Assembly (NCBI RefSeq): GCF_000238055.2
Contig: NZ_KE148312.1
Location: 627,201 to 691,200 of the forward strand
DNA: 64,000 bases
Direction of reading: 5' to 3'
Source: Oribacterium parvum ACB1
GTDB lineage: Bacteria; Bacillota; Clostridia; Lachnospirales; Lachnospiraceae
Shown here: positions 39,871 to 52,573 of the stretch, piece after piece
Layout of the letters: the number at the start of each line of letters is the position of its first letter
Position numbering within the stretch: position 1 is the stretch's first letter
The notes under the pieces: model-generated
Told to the model about the DNA's origin: nothing
The model's database searches: none
Seen by the model: the letters and a program-made list of their open reading frames with translations, nothing else
Made by a program: the position numbers and the translations under genes

Positions 39871-40413
39871 TTAAATCAGCTCTGCAACTTTCTTCGCCAC
39901 ATCCTGCATGTCCGCAGTCGGCTCGAAGCGTTCTACAACATTTCCATCTCTGTCTACAAGGAACTTAGTAAAATTCCATTTAATGTCCGGATTCTTCTTA
40001 TAATTCACATCTCTTGTAAGGCACATAGCTGCCATCGCAAGTCCCTTCGGACTGTGCCCAAAACCATTAAAGCCCTTCTGCTCCTTTAAGAAAGCATAGA
40101 GAGGCAGTGCATTTTCTCCGTTGACATCGGACTTCTTCATCTGGGGGAACTTGGTATTGTAGGTTAATGTACAGAATTCATGAATCTCCTCATCCGTTCC
40201 CGGAGTCTGGCCGGCAAACTGATTACAAGGGATATCAATGATTTCCAATCCCTTCTCATGATACTCCTCATAAAGCTTCTCGAGATCCTCATACTGCGGC
40301 GTGAATCCGCAGCCGGTTGCCGTATTAACAATGAGCATTACCTTTCCCTTGTTCTCCGCCAAAGAAAGCGCTCCGCCGCCTACCATGGGTACTGAAAAAT
40401 CATAAATATTCAT
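39871..40413 (-). CDS. Glutathione peroxidase-family (thiol) peroxidase
   Basis: Peroxide-detoxifying enzyme of the GPx family, 180 residues from the ATG at 40411-40413 (AAAGGAGG upstream). The peroxidatic residue is a cysteine, C35 in NTATGCGFTPQ, rather than selenocysteine, and the tetrad partners are Q69 and W146-N147 (KWNFTKFLVD). C63 in IPCNQFAGQ is the likely resolving residue, suggesting thioredoxin as reductant, as in most bacterial members. Own promoter and terminator. In an anaerobe it would serve oxygen defence. Confidence 0.93.
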   Translation of the reverse strand: MNIYDFSVPMVGGGALSLAENKGKVMLIVNTATGCGFTPQYEDLEKLYEEYHEKGLEIIDIPCNQFAGQTPGTDEEIHEFCTLTYNTKFPQMKKSDVNGENALPLYAFLKEQKGFNGFGHSPKGLAMAAMCLTRDVNYKKNPDIKWNFTKFLVDRDGNVVERFEPTADMQDVAKKVAELI

Positions 40414-40556
40414 ATCTTCCTCCTTTTCGATCCTTACTACTCTGTACTGCTTTTGTTTGAAAATATCTGCCATACACACTTGCCTCCACTCTCTCCCCTA
40501 CTCGATATACGAGATGGGTATAAAGCAAAGAGCAACTTTTAATTGTTTGCAATTTA

Positions 40557-40584
40557 ATTATAAACAATATTTTTAGTCTGTCAA
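40557..40584 (-). promoter_or_regulatory. Promoter of the glutathione peroxidase gene
   Basis: Minus-strand TTGACA (40579-40584), 16-base spacer, TATAAT (40557-40562): both hexamers match the consensus exactly. TTGTTT and AAACAA around the -10 form an interrupted inverted repeat that could bind a regulator; whether it is a PerR-type box is uncertain. Confidence 0.82.
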
Positions 40585-40673
40585 GAAGTTTTGATAGGTG
40601 AAGTATCCTATTCACCTCCAACGCAAAAAGCAATCTCCCTTCTGAACCGAAAAAAAACCGCTCTGCGCTATGT

Positions 40674-40695
40674 ATGATCGTGCGATGACGATCAT
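40674..40695. other. Palindrome beside the IS66 remnant
   Basis: ATGATCGT and ACGATCAT around a six-base loop, next to the stop codon of the transposase remnant. It may be an old insertion boundary or a terminator remnant. Confidence 0.4.
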
Positions 40696-40697
40696 GA

Positions 40698-40847
40698 TTA
40701 ATCTAAGGTATAGTTTCTTTGATTTAGAGGTAAATGGTAAATAACCTCTTCTCTTGGATATTTGAGGAGCCCCTTTAGTAGGTATGTAAAGTATTCGTAG
40801 GGCTTTAGTTGGTTTGCCTTTGCACTTTCCGCAATGCTATATAGATT
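40698..40847 (-). pseudogene. IS66-family transposase, C-terminal remnant
   Basis: Reading the minus strand gives 49 residues, stopping at 40698-40700, that match the C-terminal end of IS66 TnpC transposases: LYSIAESAKANQLKPYEYF followed by TYLLKGLLKYP. IS66 proteins normally read LYSLIETAKANGLNP at this point. Upstream the frame meets a stop at 40848-40850 and the rest of the gene, about 450 residues, is missing. It marks an old insertion event in the gap between the peroxidase and the ATPase pair. No intact terminal repeats seen. Confidence 0.7.
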
Positions 40848-40901
40848 TCAACAAGGAAATTGTAACGACCTTAGTGCGCTTCTTTATGGACAGCCAACTG
40901 A

Positions 40902-41054
40902 ACAAAAATGGGGAACGCTTATTTTACTACGCATCATCCGAAACTGCTGGATGAATATGACCGAAATGACGGAATTTGTATCGTTAGAAACCGTAATGGC
41001 ATTACAGCAGAAAATGAGTGTAAAAGCAAGCAATTTGTCAATCTTTGTCCTTGA
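40902..41054 (+). pseudogene. Fragment of an AAA ATPase C-terminus
   Basis: Frame beginning TKMGNAYFTTHHPKLLDE and continuing YDRNDGICIVRNRNGI resembles the switch/H-loop segment of ATPases of the OLD/AAA_15 type, whose usual pattern is FTTHxxxLLDE then VRNRNGI. The intact neighbour at 41120 has the matching IFTTHNTDMLD. A stop stands right before it and it ends at 41052-41054, so only about 50 residues survive. It suggests that a second, related ATPase gene once lay here. Confidence 0.4.
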
Positions 41055-41119
41055 AATGCTCTTTTAAATAGGATATCATTAGTTCGGATAAAGCGAAATA
41101 ACGAAAAGGAGACTCTGAA

Positions 41120-42223
41120 ATGATCGTATTAGACTTTGAGCTAAAGGGAGTTTATGGATTCAATGATTTTCATATCAATTTCAGTTATCCCAAAAAAATT
41201 GTCAATTCGATTATCGATCAGGAATATCTGAAAGGAAGAGAGCGGTTTCGCTATAAGAAGGCTGTAATTCTTATGGGTGCAAATGCTACAGGAAAGACCA
41301 GCCTTGGAAAGGCTTTGCTTCGTATTTTCGGATATATGACTGATGGAAATCCAACACCGCTGTATGAGATGGTTTCAGGCGATAAGGGATATTTCAGTAT
41401 TGATTTTGTAAATGGTGATTACCGCCTGCAGCGGTTGTCAGCTCAGATTGATGCTTCTAATCAGGAGATTGACATTCAGTATCAGACCGCAGACATTGAT
41501 ACGATGGATTCGTATGAAAAATGTGTAAAGAAGCTGAAAGATCAAACAATAGAGGCAACCAGAACCGCTACAGCACTTAAGAAGCTGGTAGGTGCTGTTC
41601 GATATCGTTTTGCATATCCTGAAATAGAAAAATCTTTGAAACTTACAGGTGCAAATAAAAGCATTTTGTTGAAGACACTGCGTGCTGTTATTGGGACGCT
41701 TGATCCTACATTGCAGGACGTTAGTTTATCAAAAGATTTGAAGGATACCTTTATTATTCGGCGCGGTGGAACGGAAATCATCATTCAGGAAGGTAAACTG
41801 CTGAATCGGGAGATACTGTCCAGTGGTACAGCAGAAGGAATAGATGTCGCAATGTTCCTTGCTGCAATGGCGACAAAAGAAAGCAGTTTCTATTATTGTG
41901 ATGAACATTTTTCTTATATTCAGAGCGATATTGAAAAACGGATTTTCGGTATTATGCTGGATCGTATCGGAGACGATGAACAGTTGATTTTTACAACGCA
42001 TAATACAGATATGCTGGATTTGAACCTGCCGAAACATAGTTATGTGTTTTTGCGTAAGCATCTGGAGGAAGGTGTATATCAGGTTTCTGCTGTTTCTGCA
42101 TCGGATGTACTGAAACGAAATACAGACTCTATACGCTGTGCGGTCGAGAATGATGTGTTTGCTTCGCTTCCGCAGGATTCCCTTTTGGACGAGCTGGAAA
42201 TGGGGTGGGAAGATGAACAATAA
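41120..42223 (+). CDS. AAA/OLD-like ATPase of a two-gene module
   Basis: 367-residue ATPase of the SMC/ABC-like AAA_15 group. Walker A is GANATGKTS at 53-61; the ABC signature-like segment LSSGTAEG is near 233-240; Walker B is SSFYYCDEHFSYI, near 255-267, and the switch histidine is in IFTTHNTD at about 290. A middle region of about 130 residues separates the halves and is not recognised. The ATG follows AAAAGGAG. A TOPRIM-like gene overlaps its end by 11 bases. The pairing recalls RloA/RloB (AbiL) and AriA/AriB of PARIS, in which an ATPase senses a phage product and releases the TOPRIM nuclease. Function here is inferred, not shown. Confidence 0.85.
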   Translation: MIVLDFELKGVYGFNDFHINFSYPKKIVNSIIDQEYLKGRERFRYKKAVILMGANATGKTSLGKALLRIFGYMTDGNPTPLYEMVSGDKGYFSIDFVNGDYRLQRLSAQIDASNQEIDIQYQTADIDTMDSYEKCVKKLKDQTIEATRTATALKKLVGAVRYRFAYPEIEKSLKLTGANKSILLKTLRAVIGTLDPTLQDVSLSKDLKDTFIIRRGGTEIIIQEGKLLNREILSSGTAEGIDVAMFLAAMATKESSFYYCDEHFSYIQSDIEKRIFGIMLDRIGDDEQLIFTTHNTDMLDLNLPKHSYVFLRKHLEEGVYQVSAVSASDVLKRNTDSIRCAVENDVFASLPQDSLLDELEMGWEDEQ

Positions 42224-42722
42224 GTGCATCTATTATGTAGAAGGCCCCTGTGAACAACAACTGATTGCGGCCTTAAAAGAAGCACCGGAAAGATTGATTC
42301 CGGGGAAGATAAAGGTCTTCAATGTGGTGCAGAATTTGATTCCAAAATCACAGATGTTGTCTATTCAGGCGGGAACGACTGTCGTTTTGGTATTTGATAC
42401 TGATGTGCCACAGACATCAAACCTAAAAAAGAACTTGGAACTTCTCACCAGGTACTGCGGAAAGCTGAAAATCATTTTTCTTCCACAAGTTCTGAATTTG
42501 GAGGATGAGTTAGTTCGATGTACAGATGTGCGAACTACGATGGAACTGACCAAAAGTGGAAGCGTTAAAAATTTCAAGACGGACTTTTGTAAGATGAAAA
42601 TAAAAGATTGTCGTTCCATGCTTGAGCGTCATAAGCTGGATTATGCACGATTGTGGATGACAAAAGCGCCTGAAGCATTTAGTTTTGTGGAGAATAATAG
42701 TTCTCAAATTAAAACATTATAA
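42213..42722 (+). CDS. TOPRIM-like (RloB-related) partner of the ATPase
   Basis: 169-residue protein starting at the ATG at 42213, which overlaps the ATPase stop by 11 bases with GGGGTGGGA upstream. The first strand holds KCIYYVEGPCEQQL with E10, and LVFDTDVP at 59-66 gives D62 and D64, the acidic E...DxD pattern of TOPRIM nucleases. A conserved-looking NLEDELVR near 95-102 follows, then a Lys/Arg-rich helical end. It is shorter than RloB or AriB. A metal-dependent nuclease is likely by analogy, probably held in check by the ATPase. A very good terminator follows. Confidence 0.7.
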   Translation: MNNKCIYYVEGPCEQQLIAALKEAPERLIPGKIKVFNVVQNLIPKSQMLSIQAGTTVVLVFDTDVPQTSNLKKNLELLTRYCGKLKIIFLPQVLNLEDELVRCTDVRTTMELTKSGSVKNFKTDFCKMKIKDCRSMLERHKLDYARLWMTKAPEAFSFVENNSSQIKTL

Positions 42723-42728
42723 TCTTTG

Positions 42729-42762
42729 ATACCTCGTTGGGAAACCAACGGGGTATTTTTTT
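42729..42762 (+). terminator. Terminator of the ATPase-TOPRIM pair
   Basis: ATACCTCGTTGG and CCAACGGGGTAT (42729-42756) pair around GAAA with one G-T pair, followed by TTTTTTT. It lies seven bases past the stop codon. Confidence 0.92.
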
Positions 42763-42979
42763 GCCCCAATCCGGCAATCTTACCACCGTCTCTGGTAGCT
42801 TACCTATTCTCTTCTAATCCATAGGGATTTTTTTCTTACATGAATGCTATTTAAATAAAGAAGTTCCCGAGAACTCCATTTTCCGCCTTATAGGACTGGG
42901 CAATCGCCCTGAACTGTAGTACTATTCATTCTGAAACTTTAGCCAATCCCCTTTGCAAGGAAAGGAGCTCTCTTAAGTC

Positions 42980-43834
42980 ATGGAAAGCGGAAAATTAAGC
43001 CTCTGTGCCACTCCCATAGGAAATCTGGAAGATATCAGCCTCCGTGTACTCCGCACACTAAAAGAAGCGGATTGTATTGCTGCTGAGGATACAAGGAATT
43101 CCATCAAGCTTCTCAATCACTTTGAAATCAAGACGCCGATGACCGCCTACCATGAGTTCAACAAGGTCGAAAAAGCACGGGAACTTGTAACACGGCTTTT
43201 AAAAGGGGAAAATATTGCCCTCATTACCGATGCGGGTACCCCTTGCATCAGTGATCCGGGCGAAGAACTCGTAAGGCAGGCGATTGACGCCGGTATAAAC
43301 GTGGAAAGTCTTCCCGGACCTGCCGCCTTTGTAACCGCACTTACTCTATCTGCCTTAAGCACAAGACGCTTTGTCTTTGAAGCCTTTCTCCCCACGGAAA
43401 AAAGCAACAAAAAAGAGCGTAAGGCAATTTTAGAAAGTCTTTCTACAGAGGAAAGAACCATCATCCTGTACGAAGCTCCACATCATCTGAAGAAAACCCT
43501 GGAGGATCTTCGAGAGACTTTTCAGGAAAATCGAGCCTTGAGCCTCGCAAGAGAGCTGACAAAAAAACATGAGGAGGTTCTATACTTTACTTTGGACGAG
43601 GCGATTGAGAAGTACCGGGAAGAAGAGCCAAGAGGCGAATATGTTTTGGTTCTTGCAGGAGCTTCTCGAGAAAAAAAGCTTCTGGAAGAACAAGCAAAAT
43701 GGGAAACACTCACACCGGAAGAACATTTTGAGCACTACATAAAAGAAGGCCTGAACGAAAAGGATGCCTTAAAACAAGTTGCAAAAGACAGAGGCATGGG
43801 AAAACGAGATGTCTATAAAATGATAAAAGGGTGA
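42980..43834 (+). CDS. rsmI: 16S rRNA (cytidine-1402-2'-O)-methyltransferase
   Basis: SAM-dependent enzyme modifying C1402 of 16S rRNA, 284 residues. N-terminal LCATPIGNLEDISLR is the family signature, then AAEDTRNS, the TDAGTPCISDPGE loop and ESLPGPAAFVTAL. FYEAPHHL-type segment appears as ILYEAPHHLKKTL. The C-terminus carries the helix-turn-helix-like NEKDALKQVAKDRGMGKRDVYKMI. AAAGGAG upstream of the ATG. The gene is convergent with the giant surface protein gene and shares a hairpin with it; its stop codon lies within that stem. Confidence 0.97.
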   Translation: MESGKLSLCATPIGNLEDISLRVLRTLKEADCIAAEDTRNSIKLLNHFEIKTPMTAYHEFNKVEKARELVTRLLKGENIALITDAGTPCISDPGEELVRQAIDAGINVESLPGPAAFVTALTLSALSTRRFVFEAFLPTEKSNKKERKAILESLSTEERTIILYEAPHHLKKTLEDLRETFQENRALSLARELTKKHEEVLYFTLDEAIEKYREEEPRGEYVLVLAGASREKKLLEEQAKWETLTPEEHFEHYIKEGLNEKDALKQVAKDRGMGKRDVYKMIKG

Positions 43835-43873: not shown

Positions 43874-46800
43874 TTACGAAGCTTGCGTTATCTCGTTTTT
43901 TCTTCTCCTCTTTCTATCTCTTCTCCAATACTCCTCTAAGAGAATAGCACTGAGAAGAAAGAGGCTTAAGTTCCCGGGCATATTGCTATTGTCTCCTGTC
44001 GGGATAACTCTGCCGTAGATATCCATCTTTCCTTTTCGCATTGCTCCCAGCATTTCTCCAATCAGCTTGAGTTCTTCAAAATCTTCCTTGCTTAGTTCCC
44101 GATTCTCTCCGAGCAGCTCTGCAAGACGCGCTTCCAGCTCCTTCTTTGTATAGCCGCCTGCTTGCTTTCCCTTCTTTCGAATCCTCTCCAAAGTTTCTTT
44201 CTTCTCTCCTTTGGAATACAATTTCGGAACACCATAACGTTCAATATACTTTACTATTTCCGGAGGAAGTTTTGCTTTGTCAATGCGAATAGGGTTTCCC
44301 GCCTTGTCAATTCCTATCGGGGGGACTGTAGGCGTCCCGTCTCCCGGCCCGCCTTTTTCTCCTCCTGATAAAATGGGGATTCCGGGGCCAATCTCGGAAC
44401 TGCCGCCACCAGGGATGACACCCTTCCTTTTCCCTCCAAGACCGCTACCGATGCCACCCGAAGATTCTCTTGGATAAAGCAGCCATTGCAGTACGGGAAT
44501 CTGTGTAAGCTCTTCTCCTGCACCAAGGATACCTTCTTTGTTCATAAGACGGTATATCTTTAGAGGTTCATCCATATTTGGTCTTCGAATATAGAGGTCT
44601 TCGTTCTTTAAAAATGCTGTCTGGTATCTTGGACGAGCGGAATTTCTTGCATCTCTTCCATAGGAAAGCACACGGATTCTCCTTGTTCCGTCATCCTCTT
44701 CCACCACTTGGAATGCCATTTCATTCTTCGGATTGTTATATTCCCGCTCCTCCGTGATATTCAAAAGGAGATAGTCCTGCGAAAGAGTGAGCTTATCTAT
44801 GCTAAGATTTCCATCGAGATCATTTTCAAAAATCTCCTGTAAGAGATATTCTTCTCCTCGATAGTTCAACGTTTCCCTTGCATTTCTTTCCGGGTATTCC
44901 GAAGCCTGTTCTATACTGTCCTCCCCCTTTTTATCTCCTTTTAAAAGCTCGGATAAATGCCAATTTTTCTTCACATAAAGAGCGTATTTCTGTCCCCCTA
45001 TATCTTTTTTTCTTGTTTCAAAATCGGTCGTATGGAAGGAAATAGCTCCTGTTTTTAGACGGTAAGTAAAGATAGGATGTTGTCCGAAACTAAAAGCTTC
45101 CATAGCTCCGGAAGATTCCTCCGTCATTGTAATGCTGCTGTCGGAAGCCACCGTAATCTTATACACTCCCAGCTGACTCGGTGAAAGTTCCAGATTCTTT
45201 CTCAGTTCCTGATCCTCTGTAAATCCTGTGGCATGAAGATAGTACGTCTTTTCTCTCTCCAAGCCGAACACACTGATATCTCCCTCATAATAAGGTCGAT
45301 ATCCGTTTATTTTTTTAGCGCGTATACTTCCCGCATTCACAAAAGAATCCACCTTATAGCTCTTCCAATGCGTCGGTGCAGGGACTCTCTCCCCATTTAT
45401 GGTGAGTTTTGTTCCTGCTGAGATCGGATGCAATCCGTCCGGATCCGTGGAAATCAGATAAGACATTCCGTAGAGTGGAAGAATCTCTTTCTTTTCCTTT
45501 CGCTCCTGATGCTCCGCTCGAACAGAGAACTGCAAGGCGGTCCGCTCTCTTGCCAGTTCCAAATTGTTTCCACTTACCTTGAAAACATTTTGTTCCGGTA
45601 CAGGAGAAAGGATGCTGATCTGATTCTTATTGTTAATCTTAAACTTCAGTTCCTTCATAGGGCGAAGTGAATTCGGAAGATTAGTGCCCTCCTTAATGGT
45701 ATATACTTTTCCGGCGAGAAACTCTCCCGAAATCAACTTTTTTCCATCGGCATCGGCAGTATAATCCCTGGTGCTCTCCACAGTCGTTCCATTAAAAATA
45801 CCGCTGATGCTGAACTCTTGTCCTCCGAGCTTTTCTCTATTCTCCCAATGCTCTTTTTTCTTATCTTCTTCACTATAAGAAAGTAAGGGGTCAATAGCAG
45901 AATGTAAAATCTGAACTCCGTTTACGGCATTGGTTCGTGTTTCCTGAATTTCCGTTTTCTCTGCCAAGAAGCGGAAAGGTCCGTAAACGCTTGGCGTACC
46001 GTCATCATTTAAGTCCAACAAGTATCCGTGAGGCTCTATCAGCTCCTTGATATAGTAGTCCTGATACCAGTCCAGTCCGTCAAATATCAATTCACCTTGA
46101 TTTCCTCCGACCCCGGTAATACCGACTACTGCAGTACCGGCCTTTTCCACAGGAATCGTCGCCGCATTATCCTTATATAGTCCAAACTTTGCACCATTTA
46201 GCTTGACGCTATGATCAAAGTCATCTACCTTTAGAATCTTCAGTTTCCCCGGAATACGGCTATTTTTTGCAATCCCTACCTCATCTCCGCTTGCACCGGG
46301 CGGATTTCCGTTTTCCAGTCCGATTTTTTCTTTAAAAGAGCAGGCCTTTACTGTCTTCTTCTCTCCGGTACCGGCCAAATCATCCTTAGTTATGACAAAG
46401 ACATATTTCTTGTTTTTCTTTACACCGGCAACCGTTTCCTGCTCGACAGTATAGCCTGTGGGAGAAGTTTCTTCCATAAAGTAATACACGCCTAGCGGTA
46501 AACCGTCCCGGATAGAAACTTTTCGGTTTTCCTTGTCTTTTTCCTCTTGATTTCCCGCCTCGCTATAGGTCTTATGAGTCAGACCTGCCGCAAGAGTTTT
46601 TGTAGAAATAACACCGTTTTCATCGCTTGTAAGTTCTGCCAGGAAAATATCATCCGTCTCCAATCTGCCGTCCAGCGCAGTATAATCATAGTCCGGTGCA
46701 GCAGAATCCTTCAGTTTATTCGCATGCACATCCAAGGCCTTTGCCTTATCATATTTCCCGGAATCCTTTACCTGATACAGCTTAAACTTTGCTCCTTTTA

Positions 46801-49800
46801 GCTTCGCATAGTCCGTTCCGCCGACTGTCTTCGGTTCTCTATCCAGCTTTATCAAGCTAGCGTGTGCCAGAATACGGGTCGCCTTAATCTTTAGTTCTTT
46901 ATTCTTATTCGCTCCCTCTTTTACGATATCTCCTGAAATGTTCTTTGTTCCGCTGATTCCCGACACTTCCTTCAATTCTTTTCCGTCGTGACTGATTTGG
47001 AACAGATAATAGTCGTTTGTCGGATGATTTTTTTCATAGAGAACGGACTGATTTGTTCTTTCCAATCTATAGTATGCATCTGCATGAAGCTTCGAAAGCT
47101 CATGCGTGTTACTTCCTGTATTAGTCCATGTTGTAAGGGCTGTAGCACTTAATTTCTCTCCGTGACTATCCGCTTCATACAGCTTAAACTCGGAATGCAA
47201 AACCGTATTTTCATACTGATCCACTTCCGTGAATGTAAACTTTGTGGGGCTGTTCTTTAAAACAAGAGTACCGACATTTCCAATCATCTTTATTTCAAAA
47301 ATACCGCCCTCATTTCCGCTTGCACCAACAAATTCCAGCCCGCTTCCATCTTTTTTGAGCCTGAAAATACCGCCCTGCTTTACACCAATCTGATATCCTT
47401 TGGGAGCATTTTCTTCTATAAGTTTGTATTCGTAGCCCGACTTTAACACGCCCTCCAGGCTAAAGCCGGTAGTCGATTCCAGTACTTCCCCGGTAATCGG
47501 GATATAGGCTTCTTCTCCGGCTTCCGTAAGCCCGTATGCACTTCCATTTCCAAGAAAAGCGCCCTTGACCGGGTCACCTAAGAAGTCGCCTTTTTTTCCG
47601 TATAGACGGAATTTACTTCCGCTAAGGCTATCTGCAGCATCTATCTTCTTTTGGAATTGGAAAATTGTCGGCTTGTTACTTAAAACAATCTTATCTCCAT
47701 CTCTTACCCCGGTATATAGGATATCCGCCGGACTTCCCGTTCCGCTTGTGTCTTTGTCTTTTTTTACCTCAAACGTAATCGAAGAAGGATTCATGATGAA
47801 ATAGCCTTCCGCAGTAGCCGTTTCCTCCAGTTTATATAAGCCCCATGGCAGTTCCGAGAACTGCAATCCTGCTATACCTAGAGCAGAAGCTGTAGTAGAG
47901 ACATTTTTCTTATCCGCTTCCGTTTCTACTTTACCGTCATAAATATATTCCCCCTCTGTAAGTCCTGATTTCAGTTTAACTTGTACGGCCTTCTTATCAT
48001 CTATAACTCCCTCGGGGTAAATGGAAAGTTTAAATTCCGCTTTTAATCCATCTCTATTTCCTGCACTCACGCCTTTTTGGTAGGGATTTGGCAAATCACT
48101 ATTTGCCGACTCAAAGGTTTTTTTCACTTTTACAGTACCGACCTTATATCCTTTTTGCTCTCTGACATCGATAAAGATATCCGCCTTCTTTGTTTCACCG
48201 ACCATGGGCACAATATTTTTGGTTCCGCTTTCACTTCCCTTTATGGAATATGGCCCATAAACCGTAGTATCTCGGGCATATCCTTTGGGAGGCAATATTT
48301 CCATAACATAGTAGTTTTCATTTCGCTTCCCCATGAAACGAATGTTTCCCTTGGAATTACTGATCTGGAGGTCTTCAGCCAGACCTTGCAATTGTTCCAC
48401 GGTCGCTGTCTCTGTTAATTTATTTTTATCGCTCGCCAAAAAGAGTCCATATCTGGCACCCGGAAGTACCACATTTCTGGACAAGGCATCCGCTTTTTTC
48501 ATATTGAAGCGAACACGACTTCCTGCAGAAGTAAATTCAAAATCTTCTATCTTTACAATACAGCTGCTGCTGCTTTTGCCACTTTCTACGGAAATCGCAT
48601 TTTTGGTCTCCTTCATTTCCGCTCGGTTGTTCACTCTAAGAACCGTGGTGTATTTTAAAAGATAGGTATCGGTAGTATCTTTGGGAAGCGTAACTTTTAA
48701 TGTGGTCTGCAGTTTATCAGGTTCTCCCGGATGCAGCGTATCCGGAATGAAATTCCTTAGTCGCTCTTTATACCAGCCGGTAATATCCGTTTCCGGAGAC
48801 TGAGGCAGTTCAACTACACCGGGGTCGGAAGCATTTTCATAAAGTTCCGTACTTCCCGGCTTATGCGTTGTTTTATATAGTTTAACGGAGGAATAATCCA
48901 AGTGCAGACCATCCGGAATGACATCCGCTAAAACCACTCTGTCCTTCAGTTTTGCTCCCATCGGGTTAATGAGTACCGACCACTCAATGCTGTTCGCCTC
49001 ATCTCCTTCACCCTGTTTTCCGCTCTTTTTCAGAATTTCATTTCGTAAATTCTCCGCTGTCCCGGAGCCTTCTTTAGTCACTTCCACCGTGGTATTCGTT
49101 AATGGAGGAACCTGCGATTGCGGGAAAGTCGTGGAGTCCAGCGTCGCTTTGTTCTTTACGAATATCTCTACCGACTCCAGATCATCTACACTGGTAATCG
49201 GTTTTTTGAAAAGCAATGCCTGCCCGTCTTCATTTAAATAGGCATAAATATTCAATTCCAAAACATCCTTTAAACTGCTTCCAAGCTCTACCTTCACCTT
49301 GTGATGCGTGTTATCAATAGTCATTTCGGAAGGCGGAACAGCGTTATCTGTTGCTCCCTTAATCAAAGCTCTTGTAGGATGATCCGGATCGCTGCCGTCC
49401 GTAATGGTAAAATATCGGGAATCCAAGGGTTTAATGACATCTCCCTCTTTATAGAAAAAGATTCCGTTTAAGTCATCCTCCAGCTTTACGTTTGCTAAGC
49501 TGTCGTATTGATCTTCATTTGCCGTAATTTTGAAATGGAAAAATGCCCTCTTATCCCCATCTCTATAAAAGCTCTTTACTTCTTTTTTCAGGAGCTTGTT
49601 TTGCAGAGATTGCACTTTTGAAACTGTTTTTTCATGCAAGGGATGAGTATCGGGATCCGTCTCATGCTCGTATAATTTTATTGTTGCGGAATTGACATAG
49701 TTATGATTTTCATTGTGTCCTATGTAATATTCCGCCTTGGTTTGATAGTCAATATGCAAATTAGACAGCTTTAAGTTCTCAGCGCTGTCATAACGTCGGA

Positions 49801-52573
49801 TAATCTGAATCCACAATTTTCCTCCATCCGTTGAGGCATTGGGAATATATTGGACGCTGATGTCCGCCATAGGCTGATGATCCTCTCCTAGAATGGTTTC
49901 TGTCTGCATTGTTGCAAAAAACGGGGCATTTTTTCTTCCTGAAAAAACCTCCGTATTGCCATACTTTATATAAAGGTCATGCAAATTGCTGTCGGATGCA
50001 ATCGTATCTTCAATGATTGCTTTTTCGTAATCCTCCCCCTTCGTCGATGATTCCAACACCCAAGAAAGTAGAGCCTTCTTTTTATTTACACCATAGGTCT
50101 TTTTCTCTAAGAATGCCGTCTCAAAAGGAACGGTCGTTACGGAAGGAGGCACCGGAACCTCCGAAGGACCGTCTCCCTCCGCAGTGGGATAGGAGACCTT
50201 GACTCTTGCCGTATTTTTCACGCCCTTTTTCGGAGATCCTCCGCCTACCGGAACTAAGGGACTGGACTCATCCACCTTCGTTTCAAAACTAATCTGATAA
50301 GCCTGTTGGAAATCTTCTGCAAAATGAATCTTTAAATTGGAACCTGACGCGGTATTTTCCACTTCATAGCTAACGGTCTGCGCACCTCCTCCTTCTAATT
50401 GCGTGAAACTTCCGGAAGGATTGGAGGCTTTGAGATTCACTTTTTCTTCAATTCCATCTCCAAGATTTTCTATCGTTATACCTTTAACTTCATCCAGAGT
50501 AAGCCCGCTGCTCAGTTCATCCACAACTGTTGCCTTGTAAACACGGGCATTATTTTTATTAAAATTTATTTTCCATCTGACGCGGTTTCCGCTGATTTGC
50601 TGGCCTTCCTTTTTCAGGATCACCTTTTCCACGATTTGCTCTGCTGTCGAAGAAGTCTTTAAGGGATCCGGATCAAGCTTCGTAGGATCTTCATGGCTTA
50701 AACGAACCGTATTTTGGATATGAGAAGGATAAGGGTCCTCAAATACCACTCTCTTTAAACCCGTAGTAAAAGTCAGGGTTTGCGGTGCTCGAATAATGCT
50801 ATCCGATGCAGGCGGAAAGGTATAGGAATAGTGAGTTCTTCCTCCCGATTCCGTCCTGACCAATTCATTTTTAATATCCAAAACTGAAGTACTGTTCCAC
50901 TTTGCGGATATGAGCTTCTGTTCCGTTTCATTAAAGGAATCCGTTATCGTAAGTCCGTTTAATCTTACGCCTTTACTTTCCGTTCCTACTTCAATCTTCC
51001 ACTCAATTTTTCCACGGTCTAAATGCGGAATAGCGGTCTTCTTCACTCCGGAAATTAACTCCGGAAGCCTTGGGAAATGCAAGATGTGCTTCATCTTAGG
51101 CAGTTCAATTTCAGAAGAAAAACCGTCGCTCTCCTCATTCCATTTACTATGATCCATCTTGAAATGCAGGAAAATATTGGCAATCGCTTCATCCACATCC
51201 AGATCCGGATCTTCTATGCCTTTTCCAAATTCAAGTTCCAGCTCCGCTCTGCCTTCCGCATTATTTCGAAATGCAGATTTCCAAAGAAGTTTATTTTCAT
51301 CCGTTCTTATATCGTCCAGATAGCTATCCTTCTTTTCCGGAAGATTTGCTGTTGAAAAATCATTTCCAACAGCTATAAAAGGTTCCGGAAATGTAAAGAC
51401 AATCTTATCTCCCTTTTTACATGTTCTGGGCCAATCCTTAAATTTCATGCCAAAGCTCATTCTGAGCTTTTCCAGATCCAAAGGAGAATAAGATCCCCCA
51501 TTTAACTCCCACTTCTTCTCTTTACCATCTGCGGAAAGCGTCGGTGTAAAAGCCTCATATCCGCTGCCTCCGAAAAATCCGCCCTTGATTTCTCCCAGAG
51601 AGAAATCGACCTCCGCCTTAATCCGATCCGATCCGCTCGTCTTCCCCTTCCAGATTGCCAGTGGAGAAAAGCTGTCCAAACTGAATTCCAAGCTTTCTCG
51701 TTTACTTCCAAAGCGTTTTTTTCTCTCTTTAACAAGAAGCTCCTCTACTTCAACATCCTCCTTTGTAACATCCAGAATATCTAAAGTACTGATTCCGTCT
51801 TCTCTTTTCTCTTCCTTTATGGGAAGATGGGCTGCCTGTAGTTCCCCGTCTCCCTCCAATGGCTGTTTTAAGGTAAATTCTATCTCTACAGTCCCCTTAT
51901 TCGGCTCGATTTCCTGATATTCCCCACTTTTTTCTTCTTCTAGGAAGAAACCTATATCATATAGTCGAAGTTCCTTCGGAGAAAATGCATTCTGCTCCTC
52001 CTCGGAATCAGATTCCTCTCCAAGGTCTTCCGTTTCCGATATTTCTTTTTCCTTATGCTCTTTTAATGCTTCCGTATAAGCACTATACTGCTCCGGTCTT
52101 TCCTCTTCTCTTATCGGACGCACCAAAAAGACTATGCCCTTGGGAAGGCTTTCCGGAATAGAAAGTGTGGCCTTGACCGAAACTTCTTCGTCTGCATAGC
52201 TAAATACTTTCTTTTTATTGACTTCAAAATAAGAAGGACTTGCGGGTTCCATTTCCGAAGCGGAGGACTGCCGTTCTGCATTCTCTTCCTGCCTTTCTGC
52301 TTCGCAATCTATTCCCTGATACAGCTCTTGTATAAAAGATTCTCCGCCTGCTCCGGAAACACTCTCGTTCCCGTCAAAAGAAAACACACTTCCTCCGTTT
52401 CCACTCTCCCCCACAAAAGTCTCTCCGCTTTTCTCTTCTCCTGTAAGAGTGGAGAACGTAAAACTTTGATTTTCTTTTTTGCTTTTCAGCGCAGGAATCT
52501 GCTCCTCACCTACAGCGATGATACTTTGAAATACAATGAGTAAAGCCAGAAATAAGGAAAATGTTCGTTTCAT
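43874..52573 (-). CDS. Giant SpaA/Cna-like surface protein (2899 residues)
   Basis: Cell-surface adhesin-like protein. Residues 1-22 are a signal peptide (SLFLALLIVFQSIIA), then an acidic region to about 330. Between about 500 and 1340 lie at least five modules with a recurring Lys...Trp-x-Ile-x-x-Asn pattern (near 510, 645, 815, 990, 1175), like Cna collagen-binding or isopeptide beta-sandwiches. At least eight SpaA/Cna_B-type repeats follow (starting near 1350, 1478, 1641, 1777, 1904, 2111, 2347, 2511), each beginning with a Lys-x-Asp/Asn strand and carrying GxxFxLY. After 2680 comes a Gly/Pro-rich stalk. The C-terminus VIPTGDNS (2856-2863), a short hydrophobic run and RRDRKRRRKNE form a sorting-like signal that lacks one residue of LPxTG. 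CGGAGG precedes the ATG. Confidence 0.9.
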   Translation of the reverse strand: MKRTFSLFLALLIVFQSIIAVGEEQIPALKSKKENQSFTFSTLTGEEKSGETFVGESGNGGSVFSFDGNESVSGAGGESFIQELYQGIDCEAERQEENAERQSSASEMEPASPSYFEVNKKKVFSYADEEVSVKATLSIPESLPKGIVFLVRPIREEERPEQYSAYTEALKEHKEKEISETEDLGEESDSEEEQNAFSPKELRLYDIGFFLEEEKSGEYQEIEPNKGTVEIEFTLKQPLEGDGELQAAHLPIKEEKREDGISTLDILDVTKEDVEVEELLVKERKKRFGSKRESLEFSLDSFSPLAIWKGKTSGSDRIKAEVDFSLGEIKGGFFGGSGYEAFTPTLSADGKEKKWELNGGSYSPLDLEKLRMSFGMKFKDWPRTCKKGDKIVFTFPEPFIAVGNDFSTANLPEKKDSYLDDIRTDENKLLWKSAFRNNAEGRAELELEFGKGIEDPDLDVDEAIANIFLHFKMDHSKWNEESDGFSSEIELPKMKHILHFPRLPELISGVKKTAIPHLDRGKIEWKIEVGTESKGVRLNGLTITDSFNETEQKLISAKWNSTSVLDIKNELVRTESGGRTHYSYTFPPASDSIIRAPQTLTFTTGLKRVVFEDPYPSHIQNTVRLSHEDPTKLDPDPLKTSSTAEQIVEKVILKKEGQQISGNRVRWKINFNKNNARVYKATVVDELSSGLTLDEVKGITIENLGDGIEEKVNLKASNPSGSFTQLEGGGAQTVSYEVENTASGSNLKIHFAEDFQQAYQISFETKVDESSPLVPVGGGSPKKGVKNTARVKVSYPTAEGDGPSEVPVPPSVTTVPFETAFLEKKTYGVNKKKALLSWVLESSTKGEDYEKAIIEDTIASDSNLHDLYIKYGNTEVFSGRKNAPFFATMQTETILGEDHQPMADISVQYIPNASTDGGKLWIQIIRRYDSAENLKLSNLHIDYQTKAEYYIGHNENHNYVNSATIKLYEHETDPDTHPLHEKTVSKVQSLQNKLLKKEVKSFYRDGDKRAFFHFKITANEDQYDSLANVKLEDDLNGIFFYKEGDVIKPLDSRYFTITDGSDPDHPTRALIKGATDNAVPPSEMTIDNTHHKVKVELGSSLKDVLELNIYAYLNEDGQALLFKKPITSVDDLESVEIFVKNKATLDSTTFPQSQVPPLTNTTVEVTKEGSGTAENLRNEILKKSGKQGEGDEANSIEWSVLINPMGAKLKDRVVLADVIPDGLHLDYSSVKLYKTTHKPGSTELYENASDPGVVELPQSPETDITGWYKERLRNFIPDTLHPGEPDKLQTTLKVTLPKDTTDTYLLKYTTVLRVNNRAEMKETKNAISVESGKSSSSCIVKIEDFEFTSAGSRVRFNMKKADALSRNVVLPGARYGLFLASDKNKLTETATVEQLQGLAEDLQISNSKGNIRFMGKRNENYYVMEILPPKGYARDTTVYGPYSIKGSESGTKNIVPMVGETKKADIFIDVREQKGYKVGTVKVKKTFESANSDLPNPYQKGVSAGNRDGLKAEFKLSIYPEGVIDDKKAVQVKLKSGLTEGEYIYDGKVETEADKKNVSTTASALGIAGLQFSELPWGLYKLEETATAEGYFIMNPSSITFEVKKDKDTSGTGSPADILYTGVRDGDKIVLSNKPTIFQFQKKIDAADSLSGSKFRLYGKKGDFLGDPVKGAFLGNGSAYGLTEAGEEAYIPITGEVLESTTGFSLEGVLKSGYEYKLIEENAPKGYQIGVKQGGIFRLKKDGSGLEFVGASGNEGGIFEIKMIGNVGTLVLKNSPTKFTFTEVDQYENTVLHSEFKLYEADSHGEKLSATALTTWTNTGSNTHELSKLHADAYYRLERTNQSVLYEKNHPTNDYYLFQISHDGKELKEVSGISGTKNISGDIVKEGANKNKELKIKATRILAHASLIKLDREPKTVGGTDYAKLKGAKFKLYQVKDSGKYDKAKALDVHANKLKDSAAPDYDYTALDGRLETDDIFLAELTSDENGVISTKTLAAGLTHKTYSEAGNQEEKDKENRKVSIRDGLPLGVYYFMEETSPTGYTVEQETVAGVKKNKKYVFVITKDDLAGTGEKKTVKACSFKEKIGLENGNPPGASGDEVGIAKNSRIPGKLKILKVDDFDHSVKLNGAKFGLYKDNAATIPVEKAGTAVVGITGVGGNQGELIFDGLDWYQDYYIKELIEPHGYLLDLNDDGTPSVYGPFRFLAEKTEIQETRTNAVNGVQILHSAIDPLLSYSEEDKKKEHWENREKLGGQEFSISGIFNGTTVESTRDYTADADGKKLISGEFLAGKVYTIKEGTNLPNSLRPMKELKFKINNKNQISILSPVPEQNVFKVSGNNLELARERTALQFSVRAEHQERKEKKEILPLYGMSYLISTDPDGLHPISAGTKLTINGERVPAPTHWKSYKVDSFVNAGSIRAKKINGYRPYYEGDISVFGLEREKTYYLHATGFTEDQELRKNLELSPSQLGVYKITVASDSSITMTEESSGAMEAFSFGQHPIFTYRLKTGAISFHTTDFETRKKDIGGQKYALYVKKNWHLSELLKGDKKGEDSIEQASEYPERNARETLNYRGEEYLLQEIFENDLDGNLSIDKLTLSQDYLLLNITEEREYNNPKNEMAFQVVEEDDGTRRIRVLSYGRDARNSARPRYQTAFLKNEDLYIRRPNMDEPLKIYRLMNKEGILGAGEELTQIPVLQWLLYPRESSGGIGSGLGGKRKGVIPGGGSSEIGPGIPILSGGEKGGPGDGTPTVPPIGIDKAGNPIRIDKAKLPPEIVKYIERYGVPKLYSKGEKKETLERIRKKGKQAGGYTKKELEARLAELLGENRELSKEDFEELKLIGEMLGAMRKGKMDIYGRVIPTGDNSNMPGNLSLFLLSAILLEEYWRRDRKRRRKNEITQAS

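Follow-up and report, generated by a model that had tools for sequence, protein, structure and literature searches.

Closest described systems and the gene pair of Oribacterium parvum

Defence by an ATPase and a separately encoded TOPRIM protein is known mainly from two systems, AbiL (RloA/RloB) and PARIS (AriA/AriB). In PARIS, the ATPase AriA is described as sequestering the TOPRIM tRNase AriB until a phage protein acts as a trigger (PMC12409363). PARIS represents class 4 of the OLD proteins; classes 1–3 are reviewed in PMC10568477, and classes 4 and 5 are treated in PMC12796447. A further pair of this kind was analysed in a 64,000-nucleotide stretch of the Oribacterium parvum ACB1 genome (contig NZ_KE148312.1, positions 627,201–691,200), hereafter the window. 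Its genes A and B encode an ATPase (P0001) and a small TOPRIM-like partner (P0002). The pair and its relatives are likely to form a compact abortive-infection-type anti-phage system that belongs to the OLD superfamily in split form, and in which the product of gene A would sense infection and keep the product of gene B, a nuclease effector, in check. The family would add a further, smaller design to the two split systems.

The plan of an ATPase and a separate TOPRIM protein, which an initial annotation of the sequence had likened to AbiL and PARIS, is common to all three. Like AbiL, the family has two adjacent genes with the ABC-type ATPase first, and its ATPase matches the AbiLi model. However, RloB proteins have 214–245 aa (n = 16), whereas the full-length partners of the family span 152–178 aa; by eye, the partners lack the RloB-type CIELWF block and have an (L/F)ExE motif. 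The family also differs from AbiL in its separate ATPase clade and its promoter dyad. The P4 hotspot is the place from which PARIS was described, and the related P2 hotspot (PMC9122126) contains members of the family. Unlike PARIS, the family has an effector that is not a DUF4435 protein, and its ATPase matches AriA models less well than AbiLi.

Several other systems are comparable. OLD proteins of classes 1 and 2 (P2 Old, GajA and the Burkholderia pseudomallei protein, Bp OLD) resemble the family in that the TOPRIM residue set of Bp OLD recurs in the same order and some family members occupy the same P2 locus as old. In contrast to them, the family TOPRIM is a separate small protein without a fused ATPase, and no GajB-like helicase was seen by eye next to the family pairs. 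The NetFlax pairs AAA(D29):TOPRIM_OLD(D44, D60) also consist of an adjacent AAA ATPase and TOPRIM_OLD protein, for which toxicity-neutralisation assays are described (PMC10440598). D44 differs in being RloB-like; D60, from S. agalactiae, might belong to the family. Finally, both genes match families already clustered in PHROGs, phrog_5836 and phrog_10204 (P0001, 1.5e-40; P0002, 9e-15; Acinetobacter members, 7.4e-100 and 6.9e-69). These are listed as being of unknown function, so a defence role would give a function to both, and phrog_5836 has 1071 positions, of which the family ATPases cover only the first 411 to 415. No paper naming the ATPase–TOPRIM family was found in the literature within reach, which did not extend to supplements and subscription papers, so that an earlier listing is possible.

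Organization of the locus

Gene A (41120–42223, plus strand) encodes a protein of 367 aa that was assigned to the ABC/Rad50-type ATPases by its motifs, predicted model and AbiLi profile match. Gene B (42213–42722, plus strand), present in one copy in the genome, encodes a predicted small TOPRIM nuclease-like protein of 169 aa, recognised by residues E10, E14, D62, D64, E97, E99 and K122. The coordinates of the two open reading frames (ORFs) confirm the 11-nt overlap reported in the initial annotation (42213–42223, plus strand). The common terminator that it had proposed corresponds to a terminator-like hairpin after gene B (42728–42757, plus strand), which closes the unit and has the longest stem of five such sites in the region (1.6 in shuffled sequences). 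Upstream, a promoter-like sequence TTGAAA-17-TATCAT (41051–41079, plus strand) agrees with 10 of 12 consensus positions; it is weak on its own, since the region contains 6 sites of this kind and shuffled sequences 4.8. Comparison of leaders revealed a conserved dyad, TTAGTTCG-GATAAAG-CGAAATAA (41079–41101, core 41083–41097, plus strand), which is predicted to be a probable operator. From promoter to terminator, the unit measures 1.7 kb (41045–42757, plus strand). No Rfam match at the gathering threshold was found across 40400–43100.

The ATPase

The Walker A, signature, Walker B and TTH switch elements that had been read from the sequence are all present in the ATPase as GANATGKTS (53–61), LSSGT (233–237), YYCDE (258–262) and TTHN (292–295). 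Their key residues, namely G53, N55, A56, G58, K59, T60, L233, S234, G236, T237, D261, E262, T292, H294 and N295, are invariant in 46/46 rows of the ATPase alignment. The predicted model (pLDDT 87.9) is similar to the heads of Rad50/SMC proteins, to Septu PtuA and to retron ATPases. No curated Pfam or NCBIfam cut-off was passed by the ATPase, for a housekeeping family or any other. A search of BFVD yielded no match at E ≤ 1e-3. The best PADLOC model for P0001 was AbiLi (E 2.1e-22), followed by PDC-M12A, mad3 and AriA; all 46 aligned ATPases matched AbiLi at E ≤ 1e-3 (best 4.4e-29). In a midpoint-rooted tree with three long branches, 31 chosen family members and 13 RloA proteins were placed on opposite sides of one branch (support 100/99). 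By this tree, the clade of the family ATPases is separate from RloA.

The TOPRIM-like partner

Searched alone, P0002 had no match at E ≤ 10 in Pfam, NCBIfam or PADLOC, and a sequence search against solved structures gave no match at E < 1. An alignment of 61 partners was used for modelling by AlphaFold2, which led to a model with a mean pLDDT of 95.1 and a pTM of 0.90, whose alternation of strands and helices fits a TOPRIM fold. The best Foldseek match in the PDB, which is borderline, was 6nk8_B (E 1.8e-3, probability 0.99, TM 0.46), which covers the C-terminal part of OLD from B. pseudomallei, with its TOPRIM domain; weaker matches included RecR chains among many small GTPases and others. Since the best match lies above E 1e-3, the TOPRIM assignment was not based on Foldseek alone. 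Weak matches to the Pfam family OLD-like_TOPRIM_1 were found for 15/61 partners (best 0.001), and a homologue from an E. coli prophage passed the PF20469 OLD-like_TOPRIM cut-off (24.2 bits vs 23.2).

The active site of Bp OLD is reported to comprise E400, E404, D455, D457, T506, E508 and K562 (PMC6755086). Partner residues E10, E14, D62, D64, E97, E99 and K122 match these seven positions in order, with E97 at the place of T506. The complete set EEDDEEK is present in 58/61 rows (of the other three, two carry D at position 14 and one has gaps at 10 and 14) and in 17/17 further members (from 15 viral and 2 E. coli loci, several of them near-identical). The acidic residues E10, D62 and D64, singled out in the initial annotation as a TOPRIM pattern, stand where it had placed them: both aspartates occur in 61/61 rows and E10 in all 60 having a residue there. 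W148 is also invariant in the 61 rows, with F in 5/17 further members. Together, the model, the profile match of a relative and the residue pattern point to a predicted TOPRIM fold with OLD-like metal ligands and lysine in the partner.

The possibility that the pair is a divergent AbiL member and not a separate class was considered. In addition to the AbiLi matches of all 46 ATPases, the profile comparison of the ATPase with RloA gave a probability of 97.7. The AbiLii model was weakly matched by 9/61 partners (best 3.4e-4), and two E. coli partners scored 17.7 and 16.2 bits against RloB, below its cut-off of 31.5. An hhalign comparison of partner and RloB (E 0.005) brought the EG and DxD motifs together, but its probability was only 6.8. 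P0002 itself matched neither RloB (PF13707) nor AbiLii at E ≤ 10, the ATPases are split from RloA, and the dyad was found before 0/13 RloA genes (three of these leaders being shorter than the 130 nt examined). Moreover, one genome (G014) carries both systems separately. AbiL membership is therefore judged unlikely. As for PARIS, no match to DUF4435 (PF14491) was found for P0002 at E ≤ 10 or for five other partners at E ≤ 0.1, and with the 61 partners this family was not among the best 25 of 58; DUF4276 was covered only through P0002 matching nothing in Pfam. Because the partners correspond to neither RloB nor DUF4435 and the ATPases are split from RloA, the family was filed under neither AbiL nor PARIS, which fits the earlier suggestion of a minimal or unclassified subtype.

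Pairing and co-divergence of the two genes

Genome contigs were scanned with the ATPase, and 80 loci were kept among 99 relatives listed; the pairing counts rest on these. A full ATPase was present in 78/80 loci, and a full partner lay directly downstream in 55/78 of them among the matches listed, so the two genes are widely paired outside the window as well. In 64 non-redundant pairs, the genes overlapped by 1–14 nt in 32/64 and lay within 50 nt of each other in the remainder. The distances of ATPases and partners were strongly correlated (Mantel r 0.91 for these 64 pairs, where 2000 permutations reached at most 0.17). The dN/dS values for ATPase and partner were 0.16/0.17 between the window and locus L011 of O. 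sinus DSM 17245, 0.11/0.06 between the window and L012 and 0.10/0.06 between L014 and L015. Other comparisons were saturated at silent sites or, for L033 and L034, nearly unchanged (partner 0.27). By these values, both genes are under purifying selection and co-diverge. Judged by its side-by-side recurrence in many genomes and dN/dS of 0.06–0.17 for both genes, the pairing is more than chance.

Partner-based searches were positive for 7/391 genomes of the class; in a draw at the phylum level the count was 2/398, the genome of the window being included in both. Of the class genomes, G097 combines a full ATPase with a partner that is shortened, and G329 has a partner fragment only, with no ATPase within 1.5 kb on either side. 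In the genus (17 genomes), the pair is present in G000 and G391. Another Oribacterium genome (G392; L164:6516-8494) has a frameshifted partner, and the place of the ATPase is taken by an ORF of 476 aa that looks by reading like an IS transposase. A partner-gene fragment without an ATPase was also seen at L007:2-1347 (minus strand), beside two genes that look by reading like AbiE.

The promoter dyad

The pattern TTC-N9-GAA was found within 110 nt upstream of the ATPase gene in 80/93 loci, whereas base-shuffled leaders gave 2.7 on average; the 93 leaders include a few near-duplicates. Then, 76 non-redundant loci were aligned on the dyad. Outside the positions used for selection, symmetry was found at ±4 in 62/76 loci (G-C 49, C-G 9) and at ±9 to ±12 in 42, 65, 73 and 62 of 76, while ±8 was free (21/76). 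The consensus is ATTAnTTCG-N7-CGAAnTAAT. In Acinetobacter and E. coli-type members both arms are changed, to TTCC-N7-GGAA. The TTC-N9-GAA pattern was also present in 15/15 viral loci on contigs not seen before (of 21 viral loci), these leaders being 11 distinct ones, two of which are near-copies of others. In the window, the long form at 41079–41101 is the only site with ≤1 mismatch (0.02 expected). The short core TTCG-N7-CGAA is not rare (2 sites vs 1.6 expected); as a sequence feature, the dyad stands out by its longer form and fixed place and not by the short core. A free scan for the best palindrome gave at least 8 of 10 pairs in 60/88 leaders and 167/1760 shuffles; the site found frequently differed from the dyad, as it did in the window, and the conclusions rest on the motif counts.

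Because the dyad travels with the cassette across phyla, it may be regarded as a putative operator at which either the ATPase or the partner would act. A TATAAT-like box abuts the dyad in 29/77 loci and ends 11 nt before its centre, so transcription would start inside the dyad there. Expression is probably autoregulated at the conserved dyad overlapping the promoter, and the dyad offers a handle on how such effectors stay silent. Alternatively, it could act as an RNA hairpin. The coding strand is rich in A at the centre of the dyad (174 A, 46 T), and in other loci the box is found further upstream, which leaves room for this reading. Mismatches at positions 2–4 were 34 G-T vs 21 A-C (p 0.10, uncorrected for relatedness), and the folding of five leaders was weak, at −2.3 to −4.9 kcal/mol (z −0.8 to −2.3). 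As the sole reading of the dyad, the hairpin was rejected in view of the 29/77 loci where transcription would start within it.

A wider dyad regulon was also considered and rejected. The exact 14-base pattern was present in 5/291 genomes of the class, in three of them at the cassette, and a reversed control pattern occurred in 11, so the other two are taken as background; the cassettes of G144 and G276, which belong to this draw, do not contain the exact pattern. In viral sequences, it was found in 106 stretches, and the pair was on one of these, the already known phage contig.

In 20 loci (e.g., L048, L049, L051, L052, L054 and L067), the dyad core starts at −39. Within the dyad, many of these have a GTG that shares the reading frame of the ATPase and is preceded by a Shine-Dalgarno-like run, so translation of the ATPase may really begin inside the dyad at those loci.

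Mobility and genomic settings

A comparison of the window with O. sinus DSM 17245 revealed 98.1% DNA identity over the whole unit (41045–42757); elsewhere in the 8 kb compared, nothing matched. The direct neighbour of the pair in the window, RsmI, has a protein only 74% identical to that of O. sinus, where the unit sits on another contig than the RsmI gene, and hence at a different chromosomal place. This difference between the cassette and its neighbour points to horizontal transfer of the cassette. In Pseudoflavonifractor MSJ-30, a member of another family, the unit is 96.8% identical and is located in a stretch with integrase-like ORFs by reading. A DNA-repair or recombination accessory pair of Rad50/RecR-like type would fit the ATPase fold, which is closest to Rad50/SMC heads, and the RecR chains among the weaker partner matches. 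However, the patchy occurrence in the class and phylum draws, the horizontal transfer and the carriage by phages make this explanation highly improbable.

The family occurs in several phyla and in phages and prophages. In the phage NatCom_17901, the pair lies antisense between the portal and terminase genes; in the Acinetobacter phage Ab105-3phi, it is one ORF away from the integrase. The pair was also found on an Acinetobacter plasmid, and a tblastn search among plasmids gave one relative of P0001 and none of P0002. In a Verrucomicrobia metagenome-assembled genome (L041), it is embedded in an Hma locus between HmaB and HmaA, and AbiLi- or AbiLii-type genes or pieces adjoin it in L012, L015 and L020.

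In complete E. coli genomes, one version was present in 6/5426 (two of the six records represent one strain) and another in 7/5426; a search for distant relatives returned the same six. Two of these six loci were opened, and both had the pair between the portal and replication endonuclease genes of a P2-like prophage and next to partition genes. This cos-proximal gpA-gpQ hotspot of P2 is described as a reservoir of anti-phage systems, P2 itself having old and tin there (PMC9122126). The old/tin site is the strongest setting for a defence role, and its occupation in E. coli prophages makes the family directly testable in laboratory strains. RefSeq labels the partner of the E. coli P2 pair as a TOPRIM domain protein and the ATPase as hypothetical. 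The two opened loci of the other seven lie, by reading, in a lambdoid late region.

In two E. coli prophages, three tRNA genes (Ile, Arg, Arg) were observed about 1.7 kb downstream of the pair (L308:8454-8703 and L309:8454-8703). Phage tRNAs can counter tRNA-cutting defences according to PMC12409363; these genes may be standard cargo.

Proposed function

By analogy with PARIS, gene A was given the role of sensor and keeper and gene B that of effector. The ATPase would sense infection and hold the partner in check; the partner, a small TOPRIM two-metal nuclease, would be released or activated to cut nucleic acid, which would stop the infected cell. By analogy with AriB and RNase M5, the target would slightly more likely be RNA, perhaps tRNA, than DNA. 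For AAA ATPases with TOPRIM_OLD partners, toxicity-neutralisation assays are described and abortive infection is suspected (PMC10440598). The pairing, co-divergence, purifying selection, ATPase motifs, TOPRIM pattern, dyad, and phage and P2-site carriage are sequence-based; from the company and location of the pair, the P2 old/tin site included, we infer the defence role.

A number of points weigh against this function. A full partner was missing in 23/78 full-ATPase loci (among the matches listed), so the ATPase may persist without it. No Foldseek match of the partner reached E ≤ 1e-3, and its seven residues were matched to Bp OLD by sequence order, not by superposition. AbiLii of L. lactis is reported as not toxic in E. 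coli, and that of F. nucleatum as toxic in E. coli and not neutralised by its AbiLi (PMC3985639). The neighbourhood is not defence-rich, as no PADLOC family was matched by more than 2 of the 147 nearest neighbours (158 listed), and many loci are flanked by housekeeping genes by reading; the case for defence rests, therefore, on particular sites.

The pair might instead be a toxin–antitoxin or addiction module of phages and mobile elements, with a TOPRIM toxin, an ATPase antitoxin, an autorepressed promoter and defence incidental or absent. The ATPase-first order with frequent overlap, the promoter dyad, the carriage by phages and a plasmid and the assays cited above would all suit such a module. 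Effector loss with the ATPase kept is common: four of the 23 loci (L016, L022, L024 and L035) have less than 600 nt of contig left, and the remaining 19 (of 74 loci with at least 600 nt after the ATPase, among the matches listed) carry a partner gene that is truncated, disrupted or internally deleted, or none that was recognised. However, this count comes from loci chosen by their ATPase, many of them metagenome assemblies. The P2 gpQ-gpA site and the Hma embedding are defence settings, and deletion of either PARIS gene is reported as non-toxic (PMC9122126). In addition, the viral contig L098 has an intact partner with an ATPase lacking its front part, although the operon start is missing too. 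A module of this type is a serious contender, yet short of probable.

Returning to the abortive-infection-type defence system, a more far-reaching version of it can be put forward tentatively, with rather less than even expectation. The family might be a distinct, phylum-crossing split OLD class with a very small TOPRIM effector and a cis-operator of its own. One of its proteins would bind the TTCG-N7-CGAA dyad, either as DNA or as a 5′-leader RNA hairpin recognised by the TOPRIM protein, so that regulation of the toxin–antitoxin kind would be combined with a function resembling abortive infection.

Debris upstream of the pair and other neighbours

The initial annotation had placed the pair beside a broken IS66 element. 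A C-terminal scrap of an IS66 transposase is indeed present (40701–40847, minus strand; PF13817, 31.7 bits, cut-off 30), and the IS66 transposase domain PF03050 was not found in the genome of the window. IS66 as the source of all the upstream debris was rejected, since only 40701–40847 belongs to it. The rest (40845–41015, plus strand) is what is left, with a frameshift, of another AbiL-type ATPase gene. It shows 96% identity to a section of a gene that is intact in L012. That gene (L012:5690-6838) lies directly upstream of the pair and has no adjacent partner of its own. Thus, two tandem ATPase genes were probably once present in the window.

Recurring neighbour families were few, the widest being of the ABC transporter type by eye (13 loci). 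In the window, positions 43874–52573 (minus strand) hold an ORF of 2899 aa that looks by eye like a large repetitive surface protein.

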